Shown piece after piece: positions 31,944 to 36,771 of a stretch of 64,000 nt of DNA (the stretch's first letter is position 1; each line of letters starts with the position of its first letter). Origin of the DNA: Klebsiella sp. RHBSTW-00484 (GTDB lineage Bacteria > Pseudomonadota > Gammaproteobacteria > Enterobacterales > Enterobacteriaceae). Location of the stretch: the NCBI RefSeq assembly GCF_013705725.1, contig NZ_CP055481.1, forward strand, positions 4,216,001-4,280,000. Reading direction: 5' to 3'. The notes under the pieces are model-generated. The model saw nothing but the letters and a program-made list of their open reading frames with translations. It was not told where the DNA came from and did no database searches. The position numbers and the translations under genes were made by a program.

Positions 31944-33482
31944 ATGGTATTTGCCTCTCTTATTGAACGCCAGCGCGTACGCCTGCTGCTGGCGTTGTTA
32001 TTCGGAGCCAGCGGAACGCTGGCTTTTTCACCTTATGATTTCTGGCCAGCGGCGATTATTTCGCTAATCGGTTTGCAAGGTTTAACCCTTAATCGTCGAC
32101 CGGTGCAAAGCGCCGCTATTGGTTATTTCTGGGGGCTAGGCCTGTTTGGTTCCGGGATTAACTGGGTCTACGTCAGCATCGCCCAGTTCGGCGGGATGCC
32201 GGGGTCGGTCAACGTTTTGCTGGTTGTTCTGCTGGCGGCTTATCTGTCCCTTTATACCGGGTTATTCGCCGGTATTCTTTCGCGCCTGTGGCCGAAAACC
32301 AGTTGGATACGCGTGGCTGTCGCTGCACCGGTAGTGTGGCAAATTACCGAATTCCTGCGCGGTTGGGTATTAACCGGTTTCCCATGGCTGCAATTTGGCT
32401 ACAGCCAGATTGACGGGCCGCTGAAAGGGTTGGCCCCTGTTATGGGCGTTGAGGCGATAAACTTCCTGCTGATGGTTGTCAGCGGCCTGCTAGTGCTGGC
32501 GCTTCTGCATCGTAGCTGGAAACCGCTGATCGCCGCCGTAGTGCTGTTCGCCCTGCCCTTCCCGCTGCGTTACATTCAGTGGTACCAGTTGCTACCGGAG
32601 CGAGCCACTCAGGTCTCGCTGGTACAAGGGGATATTCCTCAGGAGATAAAGTGGAATGAGGGCCACCTGGCCAGAACGCTGGAAACTTATCTGGATCTCA
32701 CCCAGCCGCAAATGGGCAAATCTCAGCTCATCATCTGGCCGGAGTCGGCAATTCCGGATCTGGAAATTAACCAGCAGCGGTTCCTCAGCACGTTGGACGA
32801 TCTACTACGGTCAAAAAACAGCTCACTGATCACCGGCATCGTCGATGCGCGTCTGAACGCGCAAAATCGCTACGATACCTACAACACCATTATTACCCTG
32901 GGCAAAGACAATCCTTACAGCTACGACTCGAAGAATCGCTACAACAAGAACCACCTGGTACCGTTTGGCGAGTTTGTGCCGCTGGAATCGATCCTGCGCC
33001 CGCTGGCTCCGTTCTTCGATCTGCCGATGTCCTCTTTCAGCCGTGGTCCTTACGTGCAGCCACAGCTTATCGCGCATAACATGCGTCTGACGGCGGCCAT
33101 TTGCTATGAAATTATTCTTGGCGAACAGGTGCGCGATAACTTCCGCCCGGATACTGACTTCCTGCTGACCATCTCTAACGATGCGTGGTTCGGCAAATCA
33201 ATCGGTCCGTGGCAGCACTTCCAGATGGCGCGGATGCGTGCGCTGGAGCTGGCCCGTCCGCTGCTGCGTAGCACAAATAATGGTATTACCGCCGTCATCG
33301 GTCCACGCGGTGAAATTCAGGAGATGATCCCGCAGTTCACCCGTGCCGTTCTGACCACTAAAGTCACGCCAACAACGGGCCTGACTCCGTACGCTCGCAC
33401 AGGTAACTGGCCGCTATGGGCGCTGACTGCGTTATTTGGCTTCGGTGCGCTGTTGATAAGCCTGCGAGTCCGTAGGCAGTAA
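31944..33482 (+). CDS. lnt: apolipoprotein N-acyltransferase
   Basis: 512 residues, inner-membrane enzyme that adds the third acyl chain to lipoproteins. About six to seven N-terminal membrane helices, then a periplasmic nitrilase domain with the catalytic triad in [10 protein letters not shown] (Glu), [12 protein letters not shown] (Lys) and [11 protein letters not shown] (Cys), and a final C-terminal helix. All key residues are present. Its lipoprotein substrates in the window include LptE, RlpA and ChiQ. Confidence 0.97.
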
Positions 33483-33487
33483 CCTAA

Positions 33488-33507
33488 ATGGGGGGAAGTC
33501 CCCCCAT
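33488..33507. terminator. bidirectional hairpin between lnt and rhomboid gene
   Basis: ATGGGGGG, loop AAGT, CCCCCCAT: a very stable 8-bp stem between two convergent genes, without a long T-run on either side. Confidence 0.55.
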
Positions 33508-33513
33508 GTTCCA

Positions 33514-35448
33514 TTATTCAACGTCAGGAAGACAGGCGACATTGCCAAAGTGAGGATGTCGAACGAGATCCCTCGGAGCAAGCGACTTGTCTCTATCCAA
33601 CACCGTCAGCGCTTTTGCCCCCAACACATATATCTGCTTACCATCGACTGAAAACCGAACTTGCCTTGCGCGGCTGACAGGGTAAACCCCCACAACCTGG
33701 CTCGCATCCACGCTGAGCAGAACGATATATCCTTCCAACCCATAGGTCGATAGCGCGATATATCGACCATCCGGGCTTATCGCTTCAGCAGAATAGATAC
33801 TTCGGCTGCACCATTGAGCCAGTCGTTTCGGCTGCTGCGATGCCCGGTCAATACGTGAAATCCCCAAGCTATCGGCAAAAATAACATCGCCGTTTTCCGG
33901 GCGAAAACCGACAACGGTCGTTGTCCCGTGAGCATCCCCTGCTGGGTAGTCCACCTTCTGCCGGGTATCGGTGTCAATGCGCTCAATATTGCGACTCACC
34001 ATACCGAGGACCAATAGTGTTTTTTCATCCGGCGAGAGAATTGGCCTTATATTATGACCTCTGCCGTGACCTGACCCACCATAATCTTCCACGGGAATAT
34101 CGCCAAGCAACTGATATGACGTCAGGTCAATGGCCGAAATGCTGTTGCTGGTGCGATTCATCACCCAGACGCGTTTGCCGTCGCGAGAGATCGCCATCGC
34201 GTCCGGGCTACGCCCCGTTGCGATAGTCTGAATGACTTCCCCCGTCGCAACCCGGATCACCGACAGTGAATCCGATTCAAACCCGGTCGCATAAAGCAGC
34301 GTTTCATCCAGACTAAGCTTCAGCGCTCTGACCCCCCGATCGCCACAATCGCTACAGCGCCCTTTGTAATTTGCAGCCCTTACCGTACCGGTAAACGTTC
34401 TCAGAACCTTACGTTGCTCGAGACTGTATACCGTGATGGTGTTTTTATCCTCAACCGCTGCGTATAGCGTCTTTCCATCCTTACTCAGCGCGATGTCATT
34501 GATGCCGGGTATCTCAGCCAGTGTCGTGCCACGGGCCTCTTCATTGCTTACCGGCTCTGGCAGCCTGACCATATACTTTTCGCGTTCATCGGCCAGAACC
34601 TGCCTCTTTTGCTGCCGCTCTTTCTCAACGCTGAGAGGATAAAATTCATTGCGCAGGCTCGCTCTGACCTCCAGGTCCGATTCATCAATCTGCTGCTGCG
34701 CAAGCCAGGTTCCCCCGAGTAACAAAACGCAGGCGGTACAGAAGAGCAATGTATTCAGAAGTAGCTTGTTACGCGACCCCATCTGAATCAGGACTATCGC
34801 AAAACCAATCACTGCTCCGGCGCACAGGCCGCCGACGTGGCTGGCATTATCAACCTCCTGCTGAGTACCGTACAAAAGTGTTAGCACGACCATGCCCAGC
34901 AGGGAATATAGCGTCCGGCGATCGTTTTCACTGCGCGTGCCTGGTTCCGCAAAAACCAGCGAGACTATTGATGCACCGGCCAGCCCCATAATGGCGCCGG
35001 ACGCACCGATGCTGATAACCGCTTGCGGCGGTAAATAAAGAAAATGGAAAACAGTCTCACTACCCGCCCCGCGCTCACTGAGCGCATAGCTGGCGCTCAC
35101 CAGCGAGCCAAAAGTACCAGATAATAAATACACCGCTACCAGGCGCCACCAGCCCAGTAATCTTTCTGCGCAAGCGCCGATGACCGCCAGAGCGAGCATA
35201 TTCAAGAACAGATGAGAAAAAGAGCCATGGAGAAAAAGGCTGGAGACCAGGCGCCAGGCTTCACCAGTTAATGTCAGCGCCGCAACATTTGCGCCTAAGT
35301 GAATTAGTGTTGTGTTACCCACATCACCACCCACAGATGCCCGAGAAAAATAGCCAAACCAGACCACGTTCAGCGCAATAAGGATAAATGTGACATAAGG
35401 GATTTTAACGACAGATAAAATTGTCGATTTGATATGTTGTGAAGGCAT
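33514..35448 (-). CDS. rhomboid intramembrane serine protease fused to YVTN-type beta-propeller
   Basis: 644 residues in two parts. Residues 15-220 form a rhomboid domain: WRLVSSLFLHGSFSHL with FLNM (64-84), catalytic GASGAIMGL (Ser150) and SHVGG (His204), so the protease dyad is intact. An extra hydrophobic segment (about 219-250) follows. Residues about 305-640 hold repeated SKDGKTLYA / SRDGKRVWV / SPDGRYIAL units typical of YVTN/NHL-like beta-propellers, with a CSDC pair near 360. Seven membrane segments would place the propeller in the periplasm. GGAAG precedes the ATG. Convergent with lnt and divergent from gltI. Substrate and role unknown. Confidence 0.85.
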   Translation of the reverse strand: MPSQHIKSTILSVVKIPYVTFILIALNVVWFGYFSRASVGGDVGNTTLIHLGANVAALTLTGEAWRLVSSLFLHGSFSHLFLNMLALAVIGACAERLLGWWRLVAVYLLSGTFGSLVSASYALSERGAGSETVFHFLYLPPQAVISIGASGAIMGLAGASIVSLVFAEPGTRSENDRRTLYSLLGMVVLTLLYGTQQEVDNASHVGGLCAGAVIGFAIVLIQMGSRNKLLLNTLLFCTACVLLLGGTWLAQQQIDESDLEVRASLRNEFYPLSVEKERQQKRQVLADEREKYMVRLPEPVSNEEARGTTLAEIPGINDIALSKDGKTLYAAVEDKNTITVYSLEQRKVLRTFTGTVRAANYKGRCSDCGDRGVRALKLSLDETLLYATGFESDSLSVIRVATGEVIQTIATGRSPDAMAISRDGKRVWVMNRTSNSISAIDLTSYQLLGDIPVEDYGGSGHGRGHNIRPILSPDEKTLLVLGMVSRNIERIDTDTRQKVDYPAGDAHGTTTVVGFRPENGDVIFADSLGISRIDRASQQPKRLAQWCSRSIYSAEAISPDGRYIALSTYGLEGYIVLLSVDASQVVGVYPVSRARQVRFSVDGKQIYVLGAKALTVLDRDKSLAPRDLVRHPHFGNVACLPDVE

Positions 35449-35689: not shown

Positions 35690-35859
35690 GGTATGCTTCG
35701 CAAAAATCAACAATATAAGAGCAAAATATTTACATTAAGCCAAACTAAATGCTAACAAGCATATACAAATACTGCACACAAAGATGGCAGCAATAAAAAG
35801 CACACACATTCACAATGGGCATCAATAGCGTCAATGACGCTGAGGATAAGGAGTCGGAT

Positions 35860-36771
35860 ATGCAATTACGTAAACTCGCCGCAGCAATGCTGGCCATAGG
35901 TCTGACCGCCAGCGCGGCGCATGCAGAAGATGCTGCACCTGCCACCGGGCAGGGCACTCTGGATAAAATTGCCAAAAACGGCGTGATCGTCGTTGGCCAC
36001 CGTGAATCCTCCGTTCCGTTTTCTTACTATGACAACAAGCAGCAAGTCGTCGGCTATTCTCAGGACTACTCCAATGCCATTGTTGATGCTATCAAGAAGA
36101 AACTGAACAAACCTGACCTGCAGGTAAAACTGATTCCGGTCACCTCGCAAAACCGTATCCCGCTGCTGCAAAACGGCACTTTTGATTTTGAATGCGGCTC
36201 CACGACTAACAACCTCGAACGGCAAAAACAAGCGGCCTTCTCCGACACGATCTTTGTTGTCGGTACGCGCCTGCTGGTGAAAAAAGGCGGTGCGATTAAA
36301 GACTTCGCGGACCTGAAGGATAAAGCCGTTGTTGTGACGTCGGGAACGACCTCAGAAATTCTGCTGCATAAGTTGAACGATGAGAAAAAAATGAATATGC
36401 GCATCATCAGTGCGAAAGACCATGGCGACTCTTTCCGCACCCTGGAAAGTGGTCGAGCAGTGGCCTTTATGATGGATGACGCGCTGCTGGCCGGTGAGCG
36501 AGCAAAAGCGAAGAAACCGGATAACTGGGAGATTGTAGGCACCGCTCAGTCTCAGGAAGCCTACGGCTGTATGCTACGTAAAGACGATCCGCAGTTCAAA
36601 ACGCTGGTAGACGAAACCGTCGCACAGGCCCAGACCTCTGGCGAAGCGGCAAAATGGTTCGACAAATGGTTCAAAAACCCAATTCCGCCGAAGAACCTGA
36701 ATATGAATTTCGAACTCTCTGAAGAGATGAAAGCGCTATTCAAATCACCAAACGACAAAGCTCTTAACTAA
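35860..36771 (+). CDS. gltI: glutamate/aspartate ABC transporter periplasmic binding protein
   Basis: 303 residues. Signal peptide LRKLAAAMLAIGLTASAAHA cut before EDAAPA. Family-3 solute-binding fold with GHRESSVPFSYYD, NRIPLLQNGTFDFECGSTTN and VVTSGTTSE lining the site. Captures L-glutamate and L-aspartate in the periplasm for GltJKL. The start at 35860 follows AAGGAG by 6 bases. The 163-base gap to gltJ holds the sRNA SroC. Confidence 0.97.
   Translation: MQLRKLAAAMLAIGLTASAAHAEDAAPATGQGTLDKIAKNGVIVVGHRESSVPFSYYDNKQQVVGYSQDYSNAIVDAIKKKLNKPDLQVKLIPVTSQNRIPLLQNGTFDFECGSTTNNLERQKQAAFSDTIFVVGTRLLVKKGGAIKDFADLKDKAVVVTSGTTSEILLHKLNDEKKMNMRIISAKDHGDSFRTLESGRAVAFMMDDALLAGERAKAKKPDNWEIVGTAQSQEAYGCMLRKDDPQFKTLVDETVAQAQTSGEAAKWFDKWFKNPIPPKNLNMNFELSEEMKALFKSPNDKALN

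Follow-up and report, generated by a model that had tools for sequence, protein, structure and literature searches.

Bacterial rhomboid proteases are best known through GlpG of E. coli K-12. GlpG has six transmembrane (TM) segments (PMC7232013). Another enzyme, Rhom7 of Shigella sonnei (SSON_0610), is reported as an active protease of this kind whose substrates are orphan respiratory subunits (Liu et al. 2020, PMC7232013). It cuts an artificial substrate based on TatA, for which both catalytic residues are required; its reported targets are FdnH and HybA, and in the absence of FdnI, FdnH is processed by Rhom7 supplied on a plasmid (PMC7232013). Deleting its C-terminal domain, or TM7 as well, still allows cleavage of the artificial substrate, and Liu et al. 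considered that TM7 could put the C-terminal domain in the periplasm (PMC7232013). The words 'propeller' and 'WD40' have 0 occurrences in the text of the Rhom7 paper, which speaks of a C-terminal domain (PMC7232013), and a rhomboid-propeller fusion is named in no title or abstract opening that we found in the rhomboid literature. Two further rhomboids are relevant here: AarA, for which TatA is a known substrate (PMC3712462), and YqgP (GluP) of B. subtilis, which is described as acting in membrane protein quality control and as binding Mn/Zn through a cytosolic N-terminal domain (PMC7231995).

The gene between lnt and gltI and its identity

We found a single open frame of 644 aa with 0 internal stops at 33514..35448 on the minus strand of the window (the whole 64,000-nucleotide stretch of Klebsiella sp. 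RHBSTW-00484 DNA that was analysed). By its open frame, Pfam, NCBIfam and alignment, it is a Rhom7-type gene that encodes a rhomboid, TM7, a linker and a YVTN propeller. The preliminary description had placed a single gene between lnt and gltI without giving its strand, and this placement is confirmed: the gene is convergent with lnt (31944..33482, plus strand) and divergent from gltI (35815..36771, plus strand). Between the convergent ends of the rhom7-type gene and lnt lies a terminator-like hairpin (33490..33505, minus strand), recognised by consensus match only. The GC content of the gene is 52.8% and its third-position GC 55.2%, compared with 58-65% in four neighbours, which is a mild, not decisive, signal of foreign origin.

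At the lnt-gltI site, E. coli holds a gene annotated 'rhomboid family intramembrane serine protease'. In an intact E. coli copy (L011, 625 aa), we found the catalytic residues at Ser133/His187, which is the numbering published for S. sonnei Rhom7; compared from end to end, the window protein and the E. coli orthologue share 54% identity. Based on this E. coli copy, i.e. its position, its identity and the published residue numbers, we identify the window protein as a Rhom7 orthologue. The preliminary description had set the protein apart from GlpG as a type with six helices and no propeller; the contrast is correct, yet the protein is of a known kind, since the architecture, which is real, intact and conserved, has already been named and functionally described as Rhom7. 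New here are the assignment of the C-terminal domain to a family, the pattern of its cysteines, the patchy history of the gene and the link to AarA.

Rhomboid half, predicted seventh helix and propeller

The rhomboid core spans residues 16-225 (34774..35403, minus strand), as set by alignments and by the Pfam Rhomboid domain PF01694, which matched residues 62-218 with an E of 1e-28 and 100.8 bits against a cut-off of 22.6. Pfam found this domain in 12/12 fusions, each scanned singly. The catalytic Ser150 (GASGAIMG; 34999..35001, minus strand) and His204 (SHVGG; 34837..34839, minus strand) lie at the positions first described and are invariant, together with W65, R66, H74 and N83, in all 12 aligned fusion proteins; hence, the claim that both catalytic residues and the landmarks are kept holds. 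The window protein scored below the cut-offs of the GlpG models (26 bits versus 250 for TIGR04239 and 22 versus 335 for NF008155) and of the rhombosortase model TIGR03902 (45 bits versus 84).

Hydropathy of the membrane half gave six peaks, of which one lies past the rhomboid core at residues 229-247, with TM5 below the threshold used. This is the seventh hydrophobic segment of the preliminary description, i.e. TM7 (34708..34764, minus strand), and it is preceded by the loop GSRNK, which has two basic residues and no acid; the first charges past TM7 are acidic. One weak peak was also seen within the propeller, at residues 573-591. A charged linker of residues 251-305 (34534..34698, minus strand) is defined by alignments, and AarA-type relatives stop inside the corresponding stretch.

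The remainder of the protein, residues 306-644 (33517..34533, minus strand), is a YVTN-type beta-propeller by Pfam, NCBIfam and PDB sequence profiles, in line with the domain proposed earlier, for which a domain search has now been run. Past residue 316, the Lactonase family PF10282, a family of 7-bladed propellers, matched above its cut-off (E 8.5e-11), and the YVTN repeat TIGR02276 matched with an E of 2e-14 and 53 bits against a cut-off of 27.9. The nearest solved sequence is that of the YVTN S-layer protein (PDB 1l0q), with an E of 3e-28 from the protein alone and 7e-57 using a profile of the propellers of 11 relatives. Similarly, when the 12 fusions were searched one by one, Pfam found Lactonase in 9 and YNCE in 7, and the C-terminal domains of all 12 can be aligned as a single family of YVTN propellers.

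We compared the blades by profile and found that segments 311-360, 374-416 and 417-458 (blades 1-3) are mutually similar at about 96%, that the fourth segment (467-509) is similar to blades 1-3 at 11-50%, and that blades 5-7 reach 10% at most with any other blade. Since the repeats are weak beyond the fourth segment, 'seven blades' is a reading from length and family, with blades 5-7 placed by length.

Beyond residue 250 the fusions have four conserved cysteines and no others, and the set is complete in 11/11 full-length fusions. Cys368 (34345..34347, minus strand) and Cys547 (33808..33810, minus strand) are invariant in 12/12 fusions, and Cys639 (33532..33534, minus strand) is present in 11/12, the twelfth (Cedecea, L022) running off the contig end. 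Cys365 (34354..34356, minus strand), placed by alignment of the fusions, has a counterpart shortly ahead of Cys368 in all 12, at a spacing of two or four residues to the next cysteine among relatives. The four cysteines fit a periplasmic domain, probably with two disulfides. Together with the charges that flank TM7, they lend good support to a predicted periplasmic side for the C-terminal propeller, which is where the preliminary description had put it.

To compare selection on the parts of the gene, we used dN/dS of three pairs; the rhomboid gave 0.13-0.17, the propeller 0.18-0.23 and the part that joins them 0.15-0.29. Hence, with values near those of the rhomboid in these pairs, the propeller is maintained by purifying selection, as seen in Escherichia and in the window's genus.

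Distribution of the fusion and its relation to AarA

The fusion occurs as one open frame in E. coli, in two Escherichia-like genomes, in a second species of the window's genus, in Providencia and in two further genera; this recurrence rules out an assembly frameshift or chimera that joined two genes. The Cedecea fusion is open as far as its contig reaches. In the family, full-length matches (E 1e-40) were found in 10 of 392 genomes and 6 of 154 genera, the window's genome included. The gene rhom7 is present in 3217 of 5426 E. coli genomes at a gene coverage of at least 80%. E. coli K-12 MG1655 (L012 2852-4046) has IS5D between gltI and lnt and no rhom7. Two records labelled DH5alpha (H8 and H13) show rhom7, and because a K-12 derivative is not expected to carry the gene, these labels may be wrong.

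Within the window's genus, 2 of 20 species have a rhom7-type gene; in the other 18, the lnt-gltI gap is 313-395 bp and held no gene remnant at E 0.01. We read the surroundings of the gene in eight genomes besides the window (the Cedecea record appearing twice) and found the lnt-gltI site in the window's genus and in the Escherichia-like genus, but in no other. The locus of the preliminary description was thus seen in two of the six fusion genera, and in the other genomes read the gene lies elsewhere. For lnt and gltI, the identity between the Escherichia-like genomes and the window is 82-86%, compared with 54% between the window protein and that of E. coli. Hence, Rhom7 evolves faster than its neighbours.

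Beyond the family, a search of 369 genomes of the class (E 1e-30) listed 3 matches, i.e. the window's genome and two propeller-less rhomboids, and so none with a fusion outside the family. Similarly, in 394 genomes of the order searched with the propeller profile (E 1e-40), the single match listed was the window's genome; in both searches at most 3 to 5 candidates were scored among the matches listed, so absence is no proof. Among named genomes, the best 80 loci included one fusion (Cedecea). In Cedecea neteri (L022 1063-5568), the fusion adjoins a 922-aa ORF and two ORFs (318 and 247 aa) with similar beginnings. Propellers without a rhomboid were also seen, one free-standing (L006/L010 in G051, 339 aa) and others among Pantoea/Erwinia plasmid matches (H26-H40), annotated as YncE or lactonase family; these are 27-28% identical to the propeller half.

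Providencia has rhomboids with and without the propeller. Among 24 Providencia genomes, 7 have the full fusion, 15 have an AarA-type gene (a class assigned from genus, size and identity), 1 has a broken copy and 1 gave no match; the rows used were L018-L021 and L127-L133 for fusions and L023-L025 and L134-L148 for AarA-type genes. The AarA-type matches end at fusion residue 295-305, and so differ from the fusions in ending in the linker past TM7. Over the region compared, three of the propeller-less rows match exactly the records named P. rettgeri, P. vermicola and P. alcalifaciens, and another record named P. alcalifaciens ('plasmid 2') has an intact fusion of 682 aa.

The AarA-type proteins of the three named records are 60-67% identical to the rhomboid half of a Providencia fusion. 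They resemble the fusions in their place as well. The Providencia fusion is flanked by a malic enzyme gene and sanA; among the named AarA-type records, two of three likewise have malic enzyme before and sanA after, and the third has sanA alone within the stretch compared. We found no propeller match below E 0.03 in 12-kb stretches around the three named AarA-type genes. All three records have an opposite-strand gene block between the rhomboid and sanA. We take its genes to be an RpiR-like regulator and a PTS component.

We found the N-terminal extension of TatA (MES...FGSPWQL) in 24/24 Providencia genomes, i.e. in 7/7 with the fusion, 15/15 with an AarA-type gene and both others. The idea that absence of the propeller is tied to TatA as a dedicated substrate is unsupported, because the extension is present regardless of the propeller. 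Hence, the propeller is not what accompanies TatA as a substrate, which agrees with the published deletion. The start of TatA was taken as the first ATG, with AGAGG ahead of it where upstream bases were seen; many copies have a second ATG six codons on, and the first is the likely start of the extended protein. One Providencia TatA (G1143) has its frame disturbed further downstream. In two genomes (L161 in G1147 and L174 in G1150), the extension is kept though the AarA-type gene is without a match or broken; another rhomboid such as GlpG may process TatA there.

In a tree of 53 rhomboid domains, the fusions, the AarA-types and a propeller-less Morganella protein form one clade (98/92), and the AarA-types fall inside the fusion clade. 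Hence, the AarA-types are probably Rhom7 proteins that lost the propeller, which is the simplest reading. A clade of fusions without the AarA-types was rejected (AU p 8e-159). A single clade for all 18 AarA rows (AU p 0.16) and one clade of the AarA rows with Morganella, which corresponds to a single loss (AU p 0.27), were not rejected. The free tree nests the Providencia fusions among the AarA-types, a topology that would need more events than a single propeller loss; given the long branches (L015, L017, L022 and L103), more than one loss, or a loss followed by a regain, is possible.

One propeller-less rhomboid of 296 aa (L103 in G667) sits on a long branch next to the clade of fusions and AarA-types, a placement that would fit gain of the propeller by a propeller-less ancestor. 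Of the outgroup rhomboids (L026-L096), 12 of 14 extend 143-274 residues past the core, and the propeller profile found no match there.

We put forward tentatively, as a possibility that has somewhat less than an even chance, that AarA, a textbook bacterial rhomboid, arose from a rhomboid-propeller enzyme by loss of the periplasmic domain and that the propeller is a removable module, serving as a receptor for substrates or as a brake. If this is true, Providencia with and without the propeller near one locus would show the effect of an extramembrane domain on an intramembrane protease.

Proposed function and comparison with known systems

The window's genome (6.9 Mb) has two rhomboids above the Pfam cut-off, a GlpG-like one and the Rhom7-type one. 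Its FdnH is 90% identical to that of E. coli and has a proline in its TM segment; the second match to FdnH is an FdoH-like protein (78%), also with a proline in the TM segment. We found no orthologue of HybA in the window's genome, where the best matches are 35-38% identical and include FdnH and the FdoH-like protein.

With moderate confidence, we read the protein as a Rhom7 protease with a periplasmic, disulfide-stapled accessory propeller that tunes substrate choice or timing. The enzyme would be an active-type intramembrane serine protease with six rhomboid helices and a seventh. It would cut helix-destabilised TM segments of unassembled inner-membrane proteins near the periplasmic face, and cleavage would lead to degradation of these proteins; in the window's genome, the strongest substrate candidate is FdnH, which is the beta subunit of formate dehydrogenase N. 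By way of the seventh helix, the YVTN propeller would reach the periplasm and probably be stapled there by two disulfides.

The propeller would be an accessory domain outside the catalytic unit, and the propeller-less rhomboids in 15 of 24 Providencia genomes agree with such a role. We infer that it acts by docking, most likely binding a partner protein or the portion of substrates that lies in the periplasm, and so tuning what is cut or when. Against this docking role, the whole gene is missing from 18 of the 20 species in the window's genus, and the reported C-terminal deletion in S. sonnei was without effect on an artificial substrate (PMC7232013). A part as substrate selector, as the preliminary description had proposed, is possible.

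Instead of docking, the propeller could sense a ligand or the redox state and so switch the protease, much as B. subtilis YqgP does with Mn/Zn through its cytosolic N-terminal domain; we consider this fairly unlikely. The propeller matches those of lactonase, YncE and NirF. Some propellers of these kinds bind small molecules. Two of the four conserved cysteines are close together, as a redox sensor might have them, but their spacing varies between two and four residues, unlike that of a conserved redox CxxC, and the CxxCH haem motif is absent. A precedent for an extramembrane sensor domain is provided by YqgP (PMC7231995).

That the propeller is a passive stabiliser or anchor with no part in proteolysis is, in our judgment, improbable. 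The C-terminal domain of the S. sonnei enzyme is reported to be dispensable on the artificial substrate (PMC7232013), and the AarA-type relatives keep the protease without a propeller, both as expected of an anchor. Purifying selection on the propeller speaks against this reading, but an anchor could be under such selection too.

It is extremely improbable that the open frame results from faulty assembly or belongs to a gene in decay, since intact fusions of 625-682 aa exist in E. coli JNE23-001, Providencia and others and dN/dS is well below 1, although the E. coli W copy is annotated as frameshifted and 2 among 39 listed full-length E. coli matches are one base short.

Returning to the accessory propeller, its conservation, its probable periplasmic position and the existence of related rhomboids with and without it offer a handle on substrate choice. 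The blade sequence resembles that of the YVTN S-layer propeller (PDB 1l0q) and of YncE (3vgz), which differ in that no protease is fused in the chains listed. YqgP/GluP is likewise a rhomboid with an extramembrane domain, and differs in that this domain is N-terminal, cytosolic and Mn/Zn-binding (PMC7231995). GlpG shares the rhomboid domain, whereas it has six TM segments and lacks a propeller, and the window protein scores weakly on its model. Rhom7 of S. sonnei includes HybA among its substrates, in contrast to the window's genome, which is without HybA; it shares with the window protein the C-terminal domain and the catalytic Ser/His, and its seven predicted TM segments compare with the six hydropathy peaks of the window protein's membrane half.
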